This document shows, one piece after another, positions 436 through 62,508 of a stretch of DNA of 64,000 bases (positions are counted from its first letter, which is position 1; every line of letters begins with the position of its first letter). The notes under the pieces were generated by a model, which worked only from the letters and a program-made list of their open reading frames with translations, ran no database searches and had not been told where the DNA came from. The stretch is taken from assembly GCF_023721715.1 (NCBI RefSeq), contig NZ_JAMDLG010000001.1, positions 2,767,784-2,831,783 on the forward strand, given 5' to 3'. The stretch is from Parasegetibacter sp. NRK P23. GTDB taxonomy: Bacteria; Bacteroidota; Bacteroidia; Chitinophagales; Chitinophagaceae. The translations under genes were made by a program, and so were the position numbers.

Positions 436-1767
436 CTAAACCTCCCTCGAAGCCATCGGTTTCAAACTCGTTAAAGACGCAATCTTCACCGGCATCCCCG
501 TATCAATTGAATTCCGCGCGGCAATCCCCACAAGAATAGACATCGCCCCATCCCTGCTTCCGGCAATCTGTTTCAAAGGATCATTCCCATCAGGTTTGAA
601 AAGCTGTTTGCGCAAACGCACATCTCCTCCCCCGTGCCCGGCCTCAGTATTGGAAACGCGGATGATTTCCCGTTTTCCGAAATTGCTGGTAACCTGTATT
701 TCATCAAACTTTTCAGCTTCCCAGGGTTGGCTTTCCTGAATCCAGGCATCAAGTTTTCCTTTGGTACCGTTAAAGGAGATGCGGTAACCTTCATAAGGAG
801 AATAAGTGGTGAGCGAATAACTCACCTGCACTTTGTTGGCATATCTGATCTGCACCGCCATCTTATCGAAGATGTCGATGTCTTCCCTCCAAACACAGCC
901 ATCGCGGTGGTAACCGTCATATTTTTCATTGTCCGCGTACAGTTTTACCAGGCGCGCGCTTTTGTTGATGTCCCAGTAAAACTTACATTCCGATTTGTGT
1001 GGGCAGGGTCTGCAATGTGTATGACGGAAAGCGTTGTTTTTACCATAATGCTCCAATGCACCATATGCATATACTTCTTCCGGCTCAGATTGGAGCCACC
1101 AGTTCAGCAGGTCAAAATGGTGGGTGGATTTGTGCACCAGCAACGAACCTCCGTTCTTGCGGAGCCGGTGCCAGCGACGGAAATAATCGGCACCATGGTG
1201 TACATCGAGGTACCAGTGGAAATCTACGGAAGTAATTTCTCCTATGGCTCCCTCGCGGAGCAGTTCATAAATTTTCTGTCGATGCGGCGAGAAGCGGTAG
1301 TTGAAAGTAACGTGTACCTTACGGCCAGTGCGCTTTTCAGCATCCAGGATCAGCTGGCATTTCTTTTCATCGATGGTCATCGGTTTTTCCGTGATGATAT
1401 CGGCACCGAGCTCCAGTCCGCGTACAATATGTTCATGGTGCACGCCATCCATACTGGTGACGATGAGTAATTCCGGTTTTGTTTCTTTCATCATCTTCTC
1501 AAAGTCCGTGAAAGTGGGACATTGCACACCAATCATCTTCCGGCCAGTTTCCACTCTTCCGGGATTGCTGTCGCACAAACCCACGAACTCCACGATATCA
1601 CCGAATTCTTCCACCACGGAAGAACCCCACATGCTGGTACCACGGTGACCTGTACCTACCATGGCGATCCGTTTTTTCGCGCCTGGAGCGGCCTGTAGAA
1701 TTTCGGGAACAAGAAGCGTACTTAAGCCGGCTGCACCGGTTTGGTGAAGAAAGTGTCTGCGGTTCAT
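436..1767 (-). CDS. Secreted Gfo/Idh/MocA-family oxidoreductase
   Basis: This is a predicted NAD(P)-dependent oxidoreductase acting on sugars or sugar derivatives outside the cytoplasm. The N-terminus carries a Tat-like signal (NRRHFLHQTG, then a hydrophobic stretch to about residue 27). The Rossmann motif VGTGHRGTSMWG is at about 37-48, and the family EKP motif is at 127-129 (ITEKPMT). An unusual Cys/His-rich patch, HCRPCPHKSEC, is at about 251-261 and could bind a metal. The length of 443 aa is normal for the secreted Bacteroidota branch. The substrate cannot be told from sequence. The gene is a single transcription unit; upstream lies a possible -7 box, and downstream the repeat element and hairpin. 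Confidence 0.85.
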   Translation of the reverse strand: MNRRHFLHQTGAAGLSTLLVPEILQAAPGAKKRIAMVGTGHRGTSMWGSSVVEEFGDIVEFVGLCDSNPGRVETGRKMIGVQCPTFTDFEKMMKETKPELLIVTSMDGVHHEHIVRGLELGADIITEKPMTIDEKKCQLILDAEKRTGRKVHVTFNYRFSPHRQKIYELLREGAIGEITSVDFHWYLDVHHGADYFRRWHRLRKNGGSLLVHKSTHHFDLLNWWLQSEPEEVYAYGALEHYGKNNAFRHTHCRPCPHKSECKFYWDINKSARLVKLYADNEKYDGYHRDGCVWREDIDIFDKMAVQIRYANKVQVSYSLTTYSPYEGYRISFNGTKGKLDAWIQESQPWEAEKFDEIQVTSNFGKREIIRVSNTEAGHGGGDVRLRKQLFKPDGNDPLKQIAGSRDGAMSILVGIAARNSIDTGMPVKIASLTSLKPMASREV

Positions 1768-28044: not shown

Positions 28045-28254
28045 TTCACGCAACTGTTTTCGCTTTGATTCTCGCAAAGACGCAAAGGAGCGGAGACGCC
28101 AAGCACAGATTGGTTGGTGCAAGCTAGCAATTAATCTATGCTTTGCGTCTTTTCGTTGCGAGAAATAATAAAATACGCTACCCCTAAATTTCAGCAACCT
28201 ACCTACACAACAAGGCTTTGCGTCTGCGCTCCTTTGCGTCTTTGCGTGAAAACT
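28045..28254. repeat. Mirrored dispersed repeat, copy D (between convergent genes)
   Basis: The left module (TTCACGCAACTG, TCTCGCAAAGACGCAAAGG, then TTGGTTGG) starts 9 bp after the A2M stop codon. It lacks its distal part. The right module is inverted and more complete (CTTTTCGTTGCGAGAAATAA near 28149, then CTTTGCGTCTGCGCTCCTTT and GCGTGAAAAC) and ends about 22 bp before the GH2 stop codon. A further partial GCGTGAAAC follows at 28269. Unlike copies A, E and F, it has no obvious central hairpin. Confidence 0.75.
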
Positions 28255-39227: not shown

Positions 39228-40784
39228 ATGATCGATATCAAAGTACCAACAGTAGGAGAATCCATCAGTGAAGTAACACTGGTGAAATGGTTAAAGAAAG
39301 AAGGAGAATACGTTCAGCGCGATGAAGTGATCGCAGAATTGGAAAGTGAGAAGGCTACTTTTGAATTGAACGCTGAAAAAGCAGGTATACTGCACACCAA
39401 AGCAAACGAAGGTGACACGATTAATATCGGCGACATCGTAGCATCTATTGATGATACCGCCGCCGCGCCATCCGGAAGCGCTCCCGCCGTGGAAGCGCCG
39501 AAAGAAGAAGCGAAACCTGACGCCACAGCGCGTGAGAACGAAAAATCCACGCCCGACGCTGTTGCCACAGGCAAGGGTGTGATTGAAATGAAAGTGCCCA
39601 CCATCGGAGAATCCATCAACGAGGTCACCCTTGTAAAATGGTTGAAAAAAGATGGCGACCTCGTTCAACGCGACGAGATCATCTGTGAAATGGAAAGCGA
39701 AAAAGCCACTTTCGAACTGAACGCGGAAGAAGCTGGCAAGCTGATACAGGTAGCAAAAGAAGGCGATGTACTGAAAATAGGTGATCACGTGGCTTCTATC
39801 GATTCCGATGTGGCCGTGCCCGCCGCAGGCGCTTCGAAGCCCGCCCCCGCACCTGAAAAGAAAGAAGCCGCTCCCGCTGCCCCTGCTGCCCCATCTTCGG
39901 ATGTAAAAGCGACCCCGGTAGCCGCCGCCATCATCGCCGACAAAAAAGTAGACCCCAAACAAGTGCAGGCCTCCGGAAGCGGTGGTAAAATCCTGAAACA
40001 GGACGTACTGGAAGCCCTCCAGAACCCGGGCCGCAAGCCCGGCGCCGCCATGTTCACCCGCGACGATAAGCGCGAGAAAATGAGCAATCTCCGCAAAACA
40101 GTTTCCCGCCGCCTCGTGGAAGCCAAAAATACCACCGCTATGCTCACCACTTTCAACGAAGTGGACATGGGTAAAATCATGGAACTGCGCGGTAAATACA
40201 AAGACAAATTCAAAGAAACGCACCAGGTCAACCTGGGCTTCATGAGCTTCTTCACCAAAGCCGTTACCTACGCACTGCAGGAATGGCCGGCCGTGAACGC
40301 ATACATCGACGGAGACGAAATCATCTACCACCAATATTGTGACATCTCCATCGCCGTATCTGCCCCGAAAGGCCTGGTGGTACCGGTGATCCGCAACGCG
40401 GAAAGCCTCAGCATGGCCGAAATCGAGAAAAAAGTAGTGGAACTTGCCACCAAAGCACGCGACAACAAACTCACCATGGAGGAAATGCAGGGTGGTACGT
40501 TCACCATCACCAATGGTGGTGTATTCGGCTCGCTGATGTCTACCCCCATCATTAATATCCCGCAGTCCGCTATCCTGGGCATGCACAAAATACAGGAACG
40601 TCCGATGGCCGTGAACGGCCAGGTGGTGATCCGTCCGATGATGTACCTCGCACTGAGTTACGACCACAGGATCATTGATGGAAGGGAATCCGTTTCTTTC
40701 CTGGTAAGGGTGAAAGAATTGCTGGAGAATCCGGAGTTGCTGTTGTTCGGGAAAGATCCATTGAGGACGTTATTGGAGTTGTAG
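39228..40784 (+). CDS. sucB: Dihydrolipoyl succinyltransferase (E2o) with two lipoyl domains
   Basis: This core enzyme of the 2-oxoglutarate dehydrogenase complex has 518 aa. Two near-identical lipoyl domains (about 1-76 and 119-197) each carry the lipoylated Lys in [12 protein letters not shown]. Ala/Pro-rich linkers separate them. The E1/E3-binding domain follows ([19 protein letters not shown]). The catalytic domain from about 285 ends with [16 protein letters not shown], which contains the acyltransferase HxxxDG. The classical E2o has one lipoyl domain; the second here explains the extra length. A repeat module starts 6 bp after the stop codon. Confidence 0.95.
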
Positions 40785-40790
40785 GAAAGA

Positions 40791-41159
40791 TTTTCACGCA
40801 ACGACGCAAAGGAGCAAGGACGCAAAGCATTGTTTGTGTTTAGCAGGTTGTGGGGATTAAGCTGTAGCGTATTTTTCATTTCTCGCAACTACGCTACGAC
40901 GCAACGTTGGACCATGATTTACCAGGCTTATTATAAATACAAAGTGGATGCCTTAGTTGGGCATCCACTTTGTATTTATAAGATAATCTTTAAAAGAAAA
41001 GCCAAAGACTCAACGTATCTTCAAGCAATCAAGGCCGTAGCGCCGTTGCGAGAAATTAAAAAAACTACCCAAAAGAAACTCCAGCCAACCAACTAAGGCC
41101 TTGCGTCCTTGCCCCTTCGCGCTGCGCAGTGCAAAGCACAAAGCAGTTGCGTGAAAAAA
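40791..41159. repeat. Mirrored dispersed repeat, copy E (best-preserved)
   Basis: The left module (40791-40910) reads TTTTCACGCAACGACGCAAA, GGAGCAAGGACGCAAAGC, a linker, then TTTCTCGCAACTACGCTACG. The right module (about 41031-41159) is its mirror image, ending in GCACAAAGCAGTTGCGTGAA. Its linker on the minus strand is TTAGTTGGTTGG. A 22-bp-arm hairpin lies midway at 40931-40981. The element fills the whole gap between convergent sucB and the GAF gene. No credible gene lies within it. Confidence 0.85.
40931..40981. terminator. Central hairpin of repeat copy E
   Basis: Perfect 22-bp complementary arms (40931-40952 and 40960-40981) surround the 7-nt loop TTAGTTG. The inner stem is AAAGTGGATGCC/GGCATCCACTTT and the outer part is AT-rich. 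It is suited to end both convergent transcripts. Confidence 0.8.
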
Positions 41160-41183: not shown

Positions 41184-43478
41184 CTACCGCATCACCCCCA
41201 CCCGCAACGCCCTCAGCCCCGAAACACCCTGCAAATCCTCCACCTCAAAGCACTCCACTTCAGCTTCCACATAACCTTTTTCGTGCAACCGTACCAGGTA
41301 CTTCCTGTATTCCGTTTCTTCCGCATCATCTGAATACACAATGGTTATTTTTCCCGCCTGCGTAATGCGTTCACCGCTTTTTTTTGCATGCGCCTTATCT
41401 ATTCTTTTCTTCACGATTTCGAAGCGCGCGTTGTAGCTACCGTCTACATCAAAGCGTTTTTCGTCCATACGGAAGCGGATGGAAATAGTGGCATTGTATA
41501 CAAGCACCAGCGTGGTAACATCCAGCGGATAAGGAAGCGAAGACTTCAATTTGTGTTGTGCAGCTTCCATTTTACACAGCACTTCCAGTTGCCAGTAACG
41601 GAGTTGTTTCAAATGCGCCGCACTAAAGTTCAGTGCCGGCGCGATGGAGGGGCCAATATAGAGGTTGTGCTCCACCCCATCTGTTTTAAAACGTTCAAAG
41701 TAATGCGGAAATATTTCCTGGGCTTCCAACTGACTTTTATCGATTACGCGGGCCATCTTATTGTTGATCAGACTAATCGTTTGCTCATACATCCGCCTGT
41801 GGGTATGGAAAACACCGTTTTCCTTTAATGTACCGGAAAAATAATCGGCTACCGCATCTTTTAACCTGCCTCCCGAAGCGCCTTGCAGCAAGGGATGAAC
41901 ACGTTCGCTTAAAAAGTTCGTGATATGTTGTTCAGTACCGGCTTTCAATGGAACGGAAAGTTCTTCCAGGTAAGCCCGGAGGTGTTTTTGAATTTCTGAA
42001 ATATCTTCGGAAGAATGAATTTCCAGTTTCGGCAACAACTCCAGCAGTGTATTCAATTGGGTGATGAGGTCATTTTGGACGCCCGCGTTACGGACTTCGG
42101 AAGAACCTTTAATATCCACCTGTCCGTACAAAGGATACACATCGGGGAAAACGATTTCATGCAGCGCATACTCATGACCGGCAGCTTCTTCCTGTATCAG
42201 CATTTGCGCCTCTTCCCGAAAGCGCCAGTGCACACTTGAGTGCACGGAAGTATATTTTTCCTGGATTACGGCCTGCACACGGTTTTCCAATTGGGCGATT
42301 AGTCGTTCAACGGTATCCGTTAAAAACGGCATCACCACTTCCAGTTTATTCGCATTAATGCTGTTCAGTTCTTTACTTCGCAACGCCACTACTTCCAACA
42401 CTCCAAGCATCACATCATTCTTCACAATGGGCGCAAGGATAAAACTTCCGATGCCCTGTGCAGCGAAATTCCTGATCAGCAAACTCTCAGGATAATGCTT
42501 CAACGCAACAGCGGTATCGGATATGGCGAAGAAACGCCGCTGATCCACCAAACAATAGAAAGAAGGCGCACAGAGCACTTCCTTCGCCGCGGCGCGTTCA
42601 CTGGTATTCAGTATAAAACTTTGCATCTGCCTGCCTAAGGCATTCAGGTTAAAAACGGATTCGTTCCGGTCAAATACGGTAAAGCCCACCCTTATATCCG
42701 GGATCCGGTATATCGACCTGAAGATTGACTCCACGCTGGATTGGAAATTGGTGGTATTCAGCGCCAGCAGTTTCTCTTTGAATATGGAAACCGCGTTTTC
42801 CACGGTGGCATCAAAAAGATTCATAATGGCAAATCCTTTTAAAACCCAGCTCTCATGAGGAAATTTCTCTTTCCAAAGCGCAATATCATCATAACTGTTC
42901 AGCAACAATTCGATGTCTGCTTCGGTCAGTTGAACAGCTTTTTCTGTAGGGTGTATATCAATAAAATCAGCATTGTACAATATCCTGTAGTGCCTGATGA
43001 TGCCATCCGCGGTAGGAATGTCGTAGAAGATGGGTTTGCTGAAATCGAGCCGCGTGCCGTAATATTCGTTCAGGATAATACAGCAACTCTGTATATAAAA
43101 CTGCGTTTCATCGAAATCCCGGATATTGATGGAGAAGGAAGGTCCAGCGGCTTTCAGGAGGTTACGGAACCGCGTTGTATGGCTGAATACGATATTGGTG
43201 TACGGTATGCTCACGGCTTTGATCTCGTTCATTGTAAGCGCTGCCGGAAATATAGGCGCCAGTAAAGCGCTGATCAGCGGTTCGTGTTGCACTATTTGCG
43301 CCGGATCTGTTATACCTGTTCTCAGTTCAGGTACCTGGTGCAGGGCCTCCAGCAACTGACGGTCGGAGGAAAGCGCCTTCTCCCCTTCTTCCATCACCTT
43401 CTTTTCCAGGGGTGTGATGATTGATTCGAAACTGAATTGCACCTGGAAAGGTGTTTCTATATTACTGAGCAGGTTCAT
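41184..43478 (-). CDS. Large GAF-domain protein of unknown function
   Basis: This is a 764-aa soluble protein. A GAF-like sensory domain lies at roughly 235-400 (SIFRSIYRIPDIRVGFTVFD; FAAQGIGSFILAPIVKNDV; LGVLEVVALRSKELNSINA). The N-terminal and C-terminal thirds are unassigned, and there is no kinase, cyclase or HTH output domain that I can see. It has no signal peptide. It is a single gene, convergent with sucB across repeat copy E and divergent from YciI. It may sense a small molecule or a redox signal, but this is only an inference from the GAF domain. Confidence 0.75.
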   Translation of the reverse strand: MNLLSNIETPFQVQFSFESIITPLEKKVMEEGEKALSSDRQLLEALHQVPELRTGITDPAQIVQHEPLISALLAPIFPAALTMNEIKAVSIPYTNIVFSHTTRFRNLLKAAGPSFSINIRDFDETQFYIQSCCIILNEYYGTRLDFSKPIFYDIPTADGIIRHYRILYNADFIDIHPTEKAVQLTEADIELLLNSYDDIALWKEKFPHESWVLKGFAIMNLFDATVENAVSIFKEKLLALNTTNFQSSVESIFRSIYRIPDIRVGFTVFDRNESVFNLNALGRQMQSFILNTSERAAAKEVLCAPSFYCLVDQRRFFAISDTAVALKHYPESLLIRNFAAQGIGSFILAPIVKNDVMLGVLEVVALRSKELNSINANKLEVVMPFLTDTVERLIAQLENRVQAVIQEKYTSVHSSVHWRFREEAQMLIQEEAAGHEYALHEIVFPDVYPLYGQVDIKGSSEVRNAGVQNDLITQLNTLLELLPKLEIHSSEDISEIQKHLRAYLEELSVPLKAGTEQHITNFLSERVHPLLQGASGGRLKDAVADYFSGTLKENGVFHTHRRMYEQTISLINNKMARVIDKSQLEAQEIFPHYFERFKTDGVEHNLYIGPSIAPALNFSAAHLKQLRYWQLEVLCKMEAAQHKLKSSLPYPLDVTTLVLVYNATISIRFRMDEKRFDVDGSYNARFEIVKKRIDKAHAKKSGERITQAGKITIVYSDDAEETEYRKYLVRLHEKGYVEAEVECFEVEDLQGVSGLRALRVGVMR

Positions 43479-50452: not shown

Positions 50453-52033
50453 ATGAAATTACTCCGCGCCACCTGTTTTTTGTGGTTGCTCACCCTTGCA
50501 ACAACCTCACAGGCACAAACACCCGCTAAAGGCTTTGTTTACACTGATACAAACGGGAACAAAAAGAAAGACAAGAAAGAAAAAGGAATTGAAGGCGTTG
50601 CCGTTTCGAACGGGGTTGAAGTGGTACTTACCGATAAAAACGGGGCCTACGAACTCCCCATCGGAAACGACAACATCATCTTCGTCGTAAAGCCTTCCGG
50701 TTATAAATTACCGCTGAACAGTAAGAACCAACCCATTTTCTACCACATCCATAAACCTGTTGGCACACCCGCGAATTTTAAGTTCAAAGGCAGCGCACCA
50801 ACAGGCCCCCTGCCCGGCTCTATCGATTTCGCCGTGATACCTACTATTCAGGAAGATAAATTCTCAGCACTCGTATTCGGAGATCCGCAACCATATACCC
50901 TGGAAGAAATCGATTATTTCTCCAGAGGTATCGTGAAAGAAGTGGAAGGCATCAAAGGCATCAGCTTCGGGCTTAGTCTGGGCGACCTCGTTGGCGACAA
51001 CCTCGATCTTCACAACCCCTACATTGATGCCGTTCAGAAAGTAGGTATCCCCTGGTACAATGTGATCGGCAACCACGATATGAACTATGATGCCGTTACG
51101 GACTCACTTTCAGATGAAACCTACGAAGCGAATTTCGGCCCGGCCAACTATTCGTTCAACGAAGGCAATGTGCACTTCATCGTACTGGACGACATCATCT
51201 ACCCCGATCCCCGTGATGGAAAAGGCTACTGGGGCGGATTCCGCGAAGACCAGCTCCGTTTCCTCGAAAACGACCTGAAACTTGTAGACACCTCCAAGCT
51301 GATCGTTTTCTCCATGCACATCCCCTTAAAGATGTACAACGATGCTTTCCGTCCGGAAGACCGCAACCGCCTGTTCCAACTGCTGCAACGCTTCCCCCAT
51401 ACCCTTTCCCTCTCCGCCCACACGCACCTGCAAAGGAACGACCTTTACGGTAAATCAGACGGCTGGCTCCGCAACACCCCGCACCACGAATACAATGCAG
51501 GCACCACTTCAGGCGACTGGTATTCCGGTCAGCTGGATGAAAACGGCATTCCCTACAGCACCATGCGCGACGGTACGCCAAAAGGCTACGCGTTCCTCCA
51601 CTTTAACGGTAACCAATATGTGATCGATTATAAAGTGGCCAGCAAGCCCGCTTCGTTCCAGATCGAAATTTTCGCGCCTAAAGTGATTCCTTTCAAAAAG
51701 AAAACTTCCGCGGGCATCTACGCGAATTTCTTCATGGGCAGGGAAGATTCAAAAGTGGAATACAAGATCGACAATGCCAAGTGGAAAAAAATGGAGTTCG
51801 CGGAAAACTTCGATCCTAACTTCCTGGGAATCCTGCATAAGTTCGATCACAGCGAAACATTGATTCCCGGTAAAAGGCCAAGCAATCCCGAGGCGTCCTC
51901 GCATTTGTGGAGAACGGCGATTCCCAATAACCTGGCATTGGGTGAGCATACGATTGAGGTGCGGGCCACGGATATGTTCGGGAGAGTTTTCACGCAGAAG
52001 GGTGGTTTTAAGGTGGCAGCGTTGGAGAAATAG
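50453..52033 (+). CDS. Secreted calcineurin-like phosphoesterase
   Basis: This 526-aa exported metallophosphatase has signal peptide MKLLRATCFLWLLTLATTSQ. An N-terminal Ig-like MetallophosN domain is present (YTDTNGNKKKDKKEKGIEGV). The calcineurin motifs follow in order: ALVFGDPQ, SLGDLVGDN, VIGNHDMNYD, FSMHIPLKM and LSAHTHLQRN. A C-terminal beta domain completes the family architecture. It may act on phosphodiesters or phosphorylated polymers. A repeat module starts 3 bp after its stop codon. Confidence 0.9.
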   Translation: MKLLRATCFLWLLTLATTSQAQTPAKGFVYTDTNGNKKKDKKEKGIEGVAVSNGVEVVLTDKNGAYELPIGNDNIIFVVKPSGYKLPLNSKNQPIFYHIHKPVGTPANFKFKGSAPTGPLPGSIDFAVIPTIQEDKFSALVFGDPQPYTLEEIDYFSRGIVKEVEGIKGISFGLSLGDLVGDNLDLHNPYIDAVQKVGIPWYNVIGNHDMNYDAVTDSLSDETYEANFGPANYSFNEGNVHFIVLDDIIYPDPRDGKGYWGGFREDQLRFLENDLKLVDTSKLIVFSMHIPLKMYNDAFRPEDRNRLFQLLQRFPHTLSLSAHTHLQRNDLYGKSDGWLRNTPHHEYNAGTTSGDWYSGQLDENGIPYSTMRDGTPKGYAFLHFNGNQYVIDYKVASKPASFQIEIFAPKVIPFKKKTSAGIYANFFMGREDSKVEYKIDNAKWKKMEFAENFDPNFLGILHKFDHSETLIPGKRPSNPEASSHLWRTAIPNNLALGEHTIEVRATDMFGRVFTQKGGFKVAALEK

Positions 52034-52036
52034 TTG

Positions 52037-52456
52037 TTTCACGCAATTGCTTTGTGCTTCGCACTTCGCAACGCACTGCTTCGTTTCTCGCAAGGACGCA
52101 AAGGAGCAAGGACGCAAGGCGTAAGTTGGTTGGGGATATTTCTTTTAACGAAGAGATTTTTGTTTCTCGCAACGACGCCACGGCGCGACGAAAGGTTTAA
52201 TTACAGACTTGCTGAGTATTACAATAATGGGTGCACTGCTGTATCCTCAAAGGCCTAAAATAAAATGGCGCGCCTTTTCTAAGCCACGCCATTACTGTAT
52301 ATATTGAACAGAATATTAAATCAACCGCTAACGTTGCGCCGTGGCGCCGTTGCGAGAAAATATTAATTAACAGGCTGCAAACCAACAACTCCTTGCGTCC
52401 TTGCTTCTGAGAGGAACTAAGCAGTGCGTTGCGCCGTGGCGTCGTTGCGAGAAATT
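52037..52456. repeat. Mirrored dispersed repeat, copy F (between convergent genes)
   Basis: The left module (52037-52195) is complete: TTTCACGCAATTGCTTTGTG, CGCAAGGACGCAAAGGAGC, linker AGTTGGTTGGGGATATTT, then GTTTCTCGCAACGACGCCAC. A short hairpin lies at 52264-52293. The right, inverted module (about 52322-52456) has CTAACGTTGCGCCGTGGCGC near its inner end. It finishes with CGTGGCGTCGTTGCGAGAAA, 4 bp before the histidine kinase stop codon, instead of the usual GCAGTTGCGTGAAA end. The gap contains no gene. Confidence 0.82.
52264..52293. terminator. Central hairpin of repeat copy F
   Basis: AATGGCG and CGCCATT form the stem, with a 16-nt loop that may pair further. It is weaker than the hairpins of copies A and E. 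Confidence 0.5.
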
Positions 52457-59673: not shown

Positions 59674-62103
59674 CTACTTCATCAGCCGCACCTCATAAAC
59701 ATTCGCCGTGGTACTGCCCTCATGCGCAACGAATTTTATTTCCAGCTTGCCGCGTAATGTTTTTAAGGATGCGGGCAGTGCATATTCTTCCGCATAGAAG
59801 TCATCCCCTTTGTCGCCTTTCATTTCTACGGAAGCCAGCTTTTGCCCTTGCACGTAAATATCAAAGGAACGGTTCCTTTCTCTGCCGAAATACACCACGC
59901 GGAGTTTGGATGCATTGCCTTCTTTGTTGTTCATTTCATAAGAGAACCAACCCTTCGCATTCCGGAAGCGCTCTTCTTTAAATAGCCCTGTTTCCGTTTT
60001 TTCTCCTTTGAATGCGTGGTCCGACTCCGGTTGTTGTTCTCCTGCATTTATCCTATCGACCGTATTGTTATCCAGGGTTATTTTCACCAGTTCTTTTTGT
60101 TTCATTTCCGCCCGCACTTTTTCAAGCTTTGATGCTTCTGTGAATGGGAAATACACCGTGTATCGCTGATCGTGGACCATATAAAAAGGGCGCAGCTGCA
60201 ATTTGCTGTACTTCTCCTGCACCACGGGCTGAGGAATATTGAACACCAGTTCACCCGGCTGTGCACGCACTTTAGCGGCCAGTTCCTTTTCGTTGCCCAC
60301 CAGCATTGGCGCATCATCCAGCGGACGGATAGGACCGGAAGCCACATGTCCCATTCTGCTGCCATCCGCGAAAAGCCCGTTCAAACCTAAAGTATCCATA
60401 GGTGCGGCGAGCACGATGGGCCCGTGCACAAAAGACACCCATTCGGATTGATCGGGCAGCCTTTCCGCACGGGTTTCCATGGGCAGTTTCACCGTAACTT
60501 TATCCCCATTCTTCCAATTGCGTTCAATGGTGATATAGTGCGCTGAATCTCCGGTTGCGGGAACGAAAGGCTTTCCGTTTATGCTGACCGTCATTGTGCC
60601 GGCAACCCAGGAAGGTTTGCGGATCATCAACACGAATTTCTTTTTCTTTTTCAGCGCCAGCTTTAATTCAGTTCGCTCCGATTCCGGAAAAGTTGTTGTC
60701 TGCGTGAGCGTGAGTCCTTTTTCTTTCCATTGCAGTTCAGATGCCATGAACAGGTTCACGAACACATCATCTCCCTTGTGCGCATAAATGAGTTCCCCGT
60801 ATTTACCATGGTTTTCCAACCCTGAGCCCACACAACACCAGAAGCCTTCCTGCGGTTGTGAATACACACGGTAATGACCGGGACGCATGGGCGTGAAGTA
60901 AACGAATCCACCCGTTTCCGGATGTTGGGAAGAAAGAATATGGTTAAACAGTGTTCTTTCATAATAATCCATGTAATGGGCCGAAGGACGGGATAGGAAA
61001 AGTCCTTTGGAAAGCCGCAACATATTGTAGGAATTGCAGGTTTCAGGCCCCTCCCGCGATTCGATCATGGAACTGAAGTTGTCGGTGGGATGAAAGTGCT
61101 CGCGAACACTGTTCCCCCCAATGGAAACAGAGCGATTGCGTACCACGGTACTCCAGAAGAAATCCGCCGCTTCGCGCCAGGCGGGATCGCCACCGGCTTT
61201 GGCCACCGCGTTGTAACCCACCACTTTGGGTATCTGCGTATTGGCGTGGAGTCCTGTGAGCGCGTCTCTTTTTTCCAGCAGCGGCTGAAGGATACGCTGG
61301 TCGGAGAAACGTTTGGCAAGTTCCAGGTATTTTTTATCGCCGGTCAACTGTGCCACATCAGCGAACACTTCGTTGAGACCGCCATGTTCGCTGCGCAGCA
61401 TGTCCTGTATTTGTGCATCGGTGAGTGGGGAGAAGGAATTATAAAACCAGTCGGTTAAACCAAGCAGTACTTTTTTTGCTGATTCATTGCCGCCAATGGT
61501 ATAGGCATCGTATAAACCCGCGAAAGTTTTGTGGATATTGTACAGTGGCACCCATTTTCCGTTGAGCGAAAAACCGTTCGCGTTAATTTTTCCATCCGCT
61601 ACGTTCTGCCACATGGCTTTCCCCCCGGGCACGCCACTGGTATATCCGTTGCCCGCGGCCTCTTGGCAGGCCAGTAATTCAGCTACCGCATAATCCAGTT
61701 TCTTTTTCACTTCTTTGTTCCCCGTGGCCGCATACATATTGGCCAAGGCGGAGAGGTAATGGCCGCCGATATGTCCATCCAGACCGGTATTTTCCCAGTT
61801 GCCGTAATTCTGCGCTTTGGGAGCGAGGCCGGCTTCTTTACGGTAAGGCGCCAGTAAGCGGTCGGCATCCAGGGAGAGCATGTATTTCATATCAGCCTGT
61901 TGCGCGCGGAGGAAAGGGCCGTTCAGTAGTTTTATGGAAGAAAGGGGGAAGAGCTCCGCTTTTTGGGCATGAACGAGTACTGGAGCAGAGAGCAAAGCTA
62001 TCGCAATGATTTTTTTCCGAAAGATGGTTGGGAGCAGTTCAAATGCTATGGAACGTGCGTCTTTTTTACCAAGCCTTGGGAAGGTAACGAGGGTTTCAAT
62101 CAT
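59674..62103 (-). CDS. Secreted GH127 (DUF1680) glycoside hydrolase
   Basis: The 809-aa protein is a putative beta-L-arabinofuranosidase. The family's zinc site is visible: Glu and Cys in EGPETCNSYN and the Cys pair in FWCCVGSG. Other landmarks are GHIGGHYLSALANMYAATGN and RSEHGGLNEVFADVA. The signal peptide (KKIIAIALLSAPVLVHA) begins about 30 residues after the chosen Met, so the N-region is unusually long. No internal ATG or GTG improves this, and the ATG at 62103 remains the best start. The open frame further upstream, to 62466, is repeat sequence. Confidence 0.9.
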   Translation of the reverse strand: MIETLVTFPRLGKKDARSIAFELLPTIFRKKIIAIALLSAPVLVHAQKAELFPLSSIKLLNGPFLRAQQADMKYMLSLDADRLLAPYRKEAGLAPKAQNYGNWENTGLDGHIGGHYLSALANMYAATGNKEVKKKLDYAVAELLACQEAAGNGYTSGVPGGKAMWQNVADGKINANGFSLNGKWVPLYNIHKTFAGLYDAYTIGGNESAKKVLLGLTDWFYNSFSPLTDAQIQDMLRSEHGGLNEVFADVAQLTGDKKYLELAKRFSDQRILQPLLEKRDALTGLHANTQIPKVVGYNAVAKAGGDPAWREAADFFWSTVVRNRSVSIGGNSVREHFHPTDNFSSMIESREGPETCNSYNMLRLSKGLFLSRPSAHYMDYYERTLFNHILSSQHPETGGFVYFTPMRPGHYRVYSQPQEGFWCCVGSGLENHGKYGELIYAHKGDDVFVNLFMASELQWKEKGLTLTQTTTFPESERTELKLALKKKKKFVLMIRKPSWVAGTMTVSINGKPFVPATGDSAHYITIERNWKNGDKVTVKLPMETRAERLPDQSEWVSFVHGPIVLAAPMDTLGLNGLFADGSRMGHVASGPIRPLDDAPMLVGNEKELAAKVRAQPGELVFNIPQPVVQEKYSKLQLRPFYMVHDQRYTVYFPFTEASKLEKVRAEMKQKELVKITLDNNTVDRINAGEQQPESDHAFKGEKTETGLFKEERFRNAKGWFSYEMNNKEGNASKLRVVYFGRERNRSFDIYVQGQKLASVEMKGDKGDDFYAEEYALPASLKTLRGKLEIKFVAHEGSTTANVYEVRLMK

Positions 62104-62217
62104 AATGGCAACAATTAGGTGGTGAAAATAACGAAATTTAATAAGTGTACAAAACACATTTAATTTAGAGAATTTGCATTTGGAAGGTTTGAGTCTTGCA
62201 AACGTTTTCAGGGAAGG

Positions 62218-62484
62218 AGTGTTTTCACGCAACTGCTTTGTGCTTCGCACAGCGCAGACGCAAGGAATGAAAGACGCAAAGCCTTGTTTGTATGCGGGAC
62301 GCTGGAGTTCGGGGGAAGATGGTTTTATTTTATTGCTCGCAACGACGCCTGCTTCGTACCTCGCAGACGCGGAGCCTTGGGTAGTTGGTGAGGATATTTC
62401 TCGCAACGACGCCACGACGCAGGGCGTTAAGGAGTTGGGAGGATATCTTTCTCGCAACGATGCCACGACGCGGAGTATTGAGGA
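62218..62484 (+). repeat. Dispersed repeat, copy G (single module with tandem distal part)
   Basis: The proximal part TTTTCACGCAACTGCTTTGT starts at about 62221. The distal part is present three times: CTCGCAACGACGCC at 62336, CTCGCAACGACGCC at 62400 and CTCGCAACGATGCC at 62451. Each of the last two is preceded by a GTTGG..GGATAT linker. There is no inverted partner. It lies in the 453-bp gap between the S9 peptidase and GH127 genes, both on the minus strand. The remaining 62104-62217 shows nothing nameable. Confidence 0.78.
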
Positions 62485-62508
62485 GTTGACGCTGAACTTG
62501 TAACGAAA

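Follow-up and report, generated by a model that had tools for sequence, protein, structure and literature searches.

The closest described counterparts of the feature at positions 40791-41159 of the 64-kb stretch of DNA analysed here (the window), from Parasegetibacter sp. NRK P23, are the REP and REPIN sequences, which RAYTs have been proposed to drive (PMC2817692, in the excerpt considered here). According to the excerpts of PMC2817692 and PMC3116915, these sequences occur as dispersed extragenic inverted doublets, reach roughly a hundred or more copies per genome, and include enzyme genes that lie within inverted repeat copies, with a flank type that tracks the enzyme, as is also the case for the repeats described below. 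Nevertheless, the gene involved here encodes a PD-(D/E)XK protein of the GxxExxY family instead of a Y1/IS200-type transposase, and the arms are 8-bp-periodic. As for the REP tag, GTAG or CGTC at one end (excerpt of PMC3733652), the consensus of our unit begins with TTTC, and its reverse complement contains CGTC and GTAG internally and not at the end. A RAYT or another Y1 enzyme was considered as the driver of the units and was rejected: one PF01797 match was found (34.8 bits, over the cut-off), and the best unit match in its 3.3-kb locus has an E value of 0.078.

MITEs share with the feature a short, gene-less, multicopy organization with inverted arms and a plausible autonomous partner in the genome, but the loops seen here are mostly unrelated among loci and the partner is no known transposase. 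Elhai and co-workers reportedly described, in 2008, small dispersed repeats of cyanobacteria nested in other repeats, which resemble the micro-insert TGCGARGCACRAAGCA found within our larger units, although the sequence differs. The 23S rRNA intervening sequence with its S23 protein is likewise a selfish unit of 0.4-0.5 kb with one small ORF, but it has a different protein, an rRNA site, and excision by RNase III, according to the excerpt of PMC4990558.

The earlier note on this DNA gave no named family with this layout, and Rfam gave 0 matches at the gathering score in the 64-kb window. In the open-licence literature, we found neither a paper tying GxxExxY to repeats nor a described role for it; in the excerpts of open-licence full texts, GxxExxY appears as a gene name only, and no element made of arms and gene-less copies is described. 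Open-licence full texts gave no match to PDDEXK_3 or to the strings CGCAAAGACGCAAAG and CACAGAGACACAGAG, and nothing relevant to REP/RAYT in Bacteroidetes or to selfish intergenic nucleases occurred among the matches listed (titles and abstract openings of open-licence papers). Compared with solved structures, GxxExxY gave four matches with E values of 0.37-0.70, all to ribosomal uL30/L7, and PADLOC gave weak matches only (E 0.0008 and 0.006).

The feature is located between two convergent genes, a 2-oxoacid dehydrogenase acyltransferase gene ending at 40784 on the left and a gene for a 764-aa protein, without Pfam match at E 0.001, ending at 41184 on the right. The left outer arm (B, 40791-40828, plus strand) starts 6 bp past the stop codon at 40784 and finds its inverted partner in 41090-41121 and 41146-41157, the outermost inverted pair (40791-40802 and 41146-41157) being perfect over 12 nt. 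The left inner unit (A, 40878-40908, plus strand), with a unit HMM match at 40879-40907, has its inverted partner at 41036-41065 (87% across 30 nt). On the other side, the right inner unit (A', 41034-41056, minus strand) was delimited by the inverted-repeat scan and a unit HMM cluster, and the right outer arm (B', 41099-41158, minus strand) by the inverted-repeat scan; B' contains a one-base variant of the 16-bp micro-insert at 41130-41145. The central hairpin (40931-40981) is a perfect 22-bp stem with a 7-nt loop, its 22-nt arms at 40931-40952 and 40960-40981 being 100% complementary in the inverted-repeat scan, and it is flanked by inverted pairs of 32 nt (81%) and 30 nt (87%). The arrangement that the earlier note had described, inverted modules around a perfect 22-bp hairpin, is thus recovered by measurement. 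The predicted RNA fold of 40791-41159 has an energy of -146.2 kcal/mol (z -9.76), and 0 of 100 shuffles were equally low.

The window contains 15 copies of the core word CGCAACGACGC (at most 1 mismatch), against 1.2 expected. A first sister copy, at 1-434, has its own hairpin (about 150-193), abuts the stop codon of the gene at 436-1767 (minus strand), and extends upstream of the window (genome match C1:2767738-2767837). Another, at 28045-28253, lies between convergent genes and has 36-nt arms with 92% complementarity and no independent hairpin, the stem detected there consisting of module sequence; its right arm scores 29 against an arm of the genome's GxxExxY element (shuffled maximum 12). 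The copy at 52037-52454 has a different central hairpin and takes up the interval from the stop codon at 52033 to that at 52456, leaving only 3 and 1 bp; its arm scores 26 against an arm of the genome's GxxExxY element (shuffled maximum 13). At 62222-62490 (plus strand), a one-sided direct array of units, with two HMM matches in 62397-62480, leads into a hairpin. The recurrent design of module, hairpin, and inverted module proposed earlier covers only part of the family, and the units of the copy at 62.2-62.5 kb lie on a single side. The hairpin, said earlier to be unlike those of the other copies, differs among loci and is often missing.

The GH127 ORF listed at 59674-62466 (minus strand) overlaps the repeat array at 62222-62466, and its true start is probably deeper inside the gene. 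We also observe that the 16-bp quasi-palindrome TGCGARGCACRAAGCA sits within modules as if inserted, at 359-374, 404-419, 52048-52063, and 62234-62249 of the window. It has 46 exact copies in the genome (backwards control, 0), and, of the 32 copies that fall in the part of the genome examined for units, 25 have a unit match no more than 250 bp away, such zones making up 4.6% of that sequence.

In the whole genome (4.83 Mb), the pattern TCGCAACGRCGCNACGRCGC with at most 2 mismatches gave 74 forward and 71 reverse matches and the reversed-order pattern gave 0; the 20-nt unit pattern matches 116 times with at most 1 mismatch and 145 times with at most 2. A unit HMM (consensus TTTCTCGCAACGACGCTACGACGCAACGTGT) was built from 62 stretches totalling 1.148 Mb, of which 464 kb are contiguous and the remainder was picked for containing matches, and it yields 149 matches in 82 clusters in this sequence, against 0 in one Markov resampling. 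Variation within the unit peaks at positions 12, 16, and 20, i.e. at every fourth base, in an analysis that omitted 14 of the 149 matches absent from the HMM alignment. A lack of inverted co-occurrence of the modules across the genome would have refuted the earlier note, but the modules do co-occur in this way: 50 of the 67 neighbouring unit pairs are inverted, 36 inward and 14 outward, the other 17 being direct. The gaps of inward pairs range from 11 to 386 bp, while 13 outward gaps measure 4-37 bp and one 126 bp.

The loci are unevenly distributed among gap types, as typed by simple ORF calling on partly targeted stretches: 36 of the 80 loci are in convergent gaps, 40 in co-directional gaps, and 4 in divergent gaps, compared to 52, 192, and 53 of 297 background junctions (two of the 82 clusters were dropped because they are not flanked by two genes). 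Convergent gaps are enriched (Fisher p 1e-6) and divergent gaps are depleted (Fisher p 0.003), which bears out the earlier description of a dispersed repeat with inverted pairs near stop codons. The cluster midpoint falls within an ORF of at least 130 aa at 7 of the 80 loci. Arms match better within a locus than between loci, both in outward pairs (0.942 vs 0.912; a value this high in 4 of 5000 permutations, 11 pairs) and in inward pairs (0.874 vs 0.852; 13 of 5000 permutations, 29 pairs), and direct pairs show no such excess (4620 and 381 of 5000 permutations; 8 and 5 pairs). At C1:1106936-1107464 (L039), three right-hand modules are found in tandem with a spacing of 244 bp, with micro-inserts at L039 9947, 10191, and 10435. 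A CRISPR-like array is also present at C1:381290-384062, with a 47-nt repeat in 36 exact copies spaced by about 77 bp.

Stems of 9 bp or more were looked for inside the loops of the 35 inward pairs whose loop measures 30 bp or more. Such a stem was detected at 8 of the 14 loci in convergent gaps, at 4 of the 18 in co-directional gaps, and at 1 of the 3 in divergent gaps, a detection that undercounts because the weaker hairpin at 52.2 kb was missed. The loops of these pairs are mostly unrelated, and three locus pairs share longer loop sequence; therefore, whole elements are sometimes copied. The central hairpin was considered as a part of the element and this was rejected, as other loops carry different hairpins or none. 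Since loop hairpins vary and many loops have none, the window hairpin, whose 22-bp stem ends with TTTGTATTTATAA on its 3' side and is placed between convergent genes, is best read as the two-way terminator of the locus itself, lying outside the element. Both convergent transcripts would probably stop at this hairpin and include arm sequence in their 3' ends, and the terminator between the arms could be either a native one flanked by two insertions or one captured by the element. The earlier proposal of an element built to surround terminators, or to duplicate itself around them, does not fit the family: inward pairs also occur in co-directional gaps, where 14 of 18 loci are without detected hairpin, the loops are mostly unrelated, and arms of this kind also enclose a protein gene, both here and in other genomes. 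At C1:683143, 1571105, 1795081, 2718401, and 3908447, outward pairs make up long, nearly perfect palindromes that occupy narrow gaps flanked by convergent stop codons, with only 0 and 3 bp left over at C1:683143, and some are followed by T-runs. These palindromes may serve as two-way terminators.

The genome contains a single PF13366 match, at C1:743217-743567, in a gene placed between NuoF- and NuoG-matching genes and on their strand. This gene (L232) matches the GxxExxY family TIGR04256 / PF13366 (E 2.1e-39 and 1.9e-37), and the two inward arms around it, TTTTTTCACGCAAAGACGCAAGGGAGCRGAGACGCAAGGA, agree at 39 of 40 positions. The left outer arm of the window feature matches one arm of this nuoF|nuoG element at 31 of 35 bases. 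Together with the arms found in other genomes, this comparison indicates that the window modules are members of the family of arms found around GxxExxY genes, both in this genome and in others. Two findings go against reading the units as parts of a GxxExxY element, namely that one GxxExxY gene stands against about 145 units in the genome, and that the arm of that gene is not quite the same as the unit most often found (A, CGCAACG).

The unit is carried by 11 of 293 other genomes of the same family, in 1-6 copies (backwards control, 2 matches in 294), and its wider form TTTCWCGCAAMGRCGCNAMG by 23 of 394 other Bacteroidota genomes, in at most 11 copies (backwards control, 0 in 395 genomes). At four loci in other genomes (L142, L154, L215, and L216), an inward pair encloses an ORF of ~125 aa, which is a GxxExxY protein at L216 (TIGR04256, E 3.7e-44). 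Within the scanned loci, four ORFs of 80-200 aa have inward units on both sides (L142, L215, L216, and L231), and all four are GxxExxY by sequence. Of 62 units listed in other genomes, 6 have a GxxExxY gene less than 700 bp away, against 0.09 expected for 116 genes, and 56 do not, in a count that covers listed unit places only and leaves out weaker or fragmentary GxxExxY rows and unscanned genomes. A GxxExxY gene is present in 186 of the 395 sampled Bacteroidota genomes, including 21 of 24 unit-bearing genomes and 165 of 371 others (Fisher p 3e-5, uncorrected for kinship). Three unit-bearing genomes have no such gene, and G003 shows unit-like BLAST matches yet no PF13366 gene, which goes against the element reading. 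In 400 kb of another genome, three arm chains were found (five shuffles, 0), none of them at its GxxExxY gene, which is a weak result, and the SucB loci of 80 relatives showed no unit at E<=1 (675 kb) and no GxxExxY gene (phmmer).

With a model of the CGCAAAG arm, all of 30 GxxExxY loci came out without a unit, and a sequence-free comparison of inverted flanks then revealed other arm types. The sample consisted of 70 loci chosen blind to their flanks (30 by HMM score, 40 hand-picked) and 5 known arm-bearers. The left flank and the inverted right flank score at least 16 at 41 of these 75 loci (38 of the 70 flank-blind ones), compared to 8 of 450 cross-pairs and 0 of 300 shuffles, and at 18 of the 31 loci of the own-family set, which includes L232. 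The direct comparison of flanks reaches at least 16 at 13 of the 75 loci; therefore, other repeats gather at GxxExxY loci too. The arms are variants of one theme, with words such as CACAGAG, CGCAAAG, or CGCAGATT about every 8 bp, and those of one locus (L374, in G019) are of the CGCAACG kind seen in the window. Arm words with this 8-bp period are found on both sides of 73 of 121 distinct GxxExxY genes and of 0 of 121 windows placed 600 bp outward, in a set where some genes were preselected by units, some come from unit-bearing genomes, and some are orthologous; the other 48 genes, including that of the genome studied here, have no arms by this word-count rule.

The type of arm is associated with the enzyme. 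Placed on a FastTree of 121 proteins, derived from a short alignment with few columns in which near-copies favour clustering, five arm types require 17 changes, compared to a mean of 32.7 after shuffling (0 of 200 as low). The protein of the genome studied here falls in a supported set of 15 rows, of which 5 are typed as CGCAAAG, 2 are typed as CGCAACG, and 8 are untyped; both of these arm forms are also present in the window. Judging from this comparison, arm type and GxxExxY protein clade go together.

The junction between a methionyl aminopeptidase gene (map) and a methyltransferase gene, both assigned by match, was read in the best 30 of the 119 genomes that matched among 121 searched from another genus. 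It is empty in 8 of the 30, with a gap of 0 or -3, and 7 of these 8 read TAATG, the stop and start codons sharing one base. A GxxExxY element is present in 11, with gaps of 440-587 bp, and 7 have gaps of 18-28 bp, of which L320 and L331 resemble stubs of two arm types; the remaining junctions are degraded in two cases and contain 83 and 143 bp without GxxExxY in two others. Occupied junctions keep the stop and start codons complete. The 11 elements belong to two protein subfamilies, 4 with 70-100% and 7 with 36-40% identity to the query, the first with CACAAAG-like arms and the second with CACAGATT- or CACGAATT-like arms. As the two subfamilies each have their own arms, the junction has been occupied repeatedly, always between the stop and the start codon, and the comparison indicates that GxxExxY elements come and go at one orthologous junction. 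At L305, the left remnant contains CACAGATT-type words like those of L304 and the right end looks of the CACAAAG type, and two different elements may have merged there. GxxExxY genes are also found between bioF- and bioD-matching genes (L299) and upstream of thiH (L295).

From these comparisons, we consider that the window feature is probably a non-autonomous copy, devoid of a gene, of a small mobile element whose gene-bearing form encodes GxxExxY. The gene-bearing form would measure about 0.5 kb, would consist of an 8-bp-periodic arm, a gene for a GxxExxY protein of ~125 aa, and the same arm inverted, and would typically occupy the space that separates a stop codon from the gene that follows. 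The putative PD-(D/E)XK nuclease may recognise its own arms, as duplex or folded strand, and cut, the arms and the gene then being copied through repair or transposition. Gene-less arm pairs would be moved in trans, and the many pairs of this genome would be passengers, as is proposed for REPs and RAYTs. Gaps beside stop codons probably tolerate insertions, and the placement may reflect target choice or survival. The chances seem about even for the broader proposal of a widespread and so far undescribed class of bacterial mobile elements that has GxxExxY proteins as its enzymes. Its members would land between stop and start codons, leave operons unbroken, and scatter gene-less arm pairs as REPIN-like passengers, and the intergenic repeats of the CACAGAG, CGCAAAG, and CGCAGATT kinds would then be footprints of a single system.

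It is also conceivable, if unlikely, that the arms form a REP-like or MITE-like repeat of their own, moved by another enzyme, GxxExxY being cargo that landed in, or was captured by, the repeats. Such a relationship would explain why most units have no adjacent GxxExxY gene (56 of 62), why some unit-bearing genomes have no such gene at all, and why direct repeats are also seen at the flanks of 13 of 75 loci. Against it stand the arm types that track the protein clade, with two subfamilies at one junction each having its own arms, and the finding that, among small ORFs (80-200 aa) near units in the scanned loci, those with inward units on both sides (four) are all GxxExxY. Furthermore, the 3.3-kb locus of the sole Y1 transposase gene contains no unit at E<0.05.

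Old structural or regulatory gene-end repeats, maintained by selection as two-way terminators or as hairpins that stabilise RNA, would account for the enrichment in convergent gaps and for the outward pairs that fill tiny gaps between convergent stop codons, as at C1:683143. We regard this as improbable, given that 40 of the 80 loci are co-directional, that T-runs after 26 outward-pair stem ends are inconsistent, and that the unit occurs in only 11 of 293 other family genomes, with 1-6 copies each. The likeness of same-locus arms beyond chance (4 and 13 of 5000 permutations) also speaks for such repeats, but whole-pair copying or template switching yields concordant arms as well. As for a drift of low-complexity 8-bp microsatellites without any element, it is suggested by the 4- and 8-bp steps of the unit and by the variable positions 12, 16, and 20, but it appears very improbable in view of the fixed TTTC end, the inward and outward pairing at characteristic distances, the reversed pattern with 0 matches in 395 genomes (2 in the 294-genome set), and the location between stop and start codons, at sites found both empty and occupied.

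If the window feature is indeed a gene-less copy of a GxxExxY element, the arms, empty sites, and gene-less copies give GxxExxY a testable role as a selfish nuclease. Many intergenic repeats would be explained, and a second enzyme with dispersed palindromic passengers, independent of RAYTs, would be added. The annotation of such gaps would change accordingly, with the repeats as element arms and the inner hairpin as terminator.

GxxExxY gave no match in phages, and none of the 17 pattern matches in viral contigs was confirmed. In plasmids, 8 records matched and the flanks were read in 5. Arms are present in the Bernardetia, Gemmatirosa, and Sphingomonas records, the last showing the order fabD|GxxExxY|fabG with arms TCTTTTTTCACGCGAAGGCGCGAGGACGCGA / TCTTTGGTTCACGCGAAGCCGCGAAGACGCGA; the Treponema record shows 11 bp only and the Fusobacteria record no inverted arm. 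On the Gemmatirosa kalamazoonensis plasmid (L379), each flank of the GxxExxY gene is a complete, near-perfect palindrome of CGCAGAGG words and not a single arm, so that the flanks look as if a gene-less element sat on either side of the gene.
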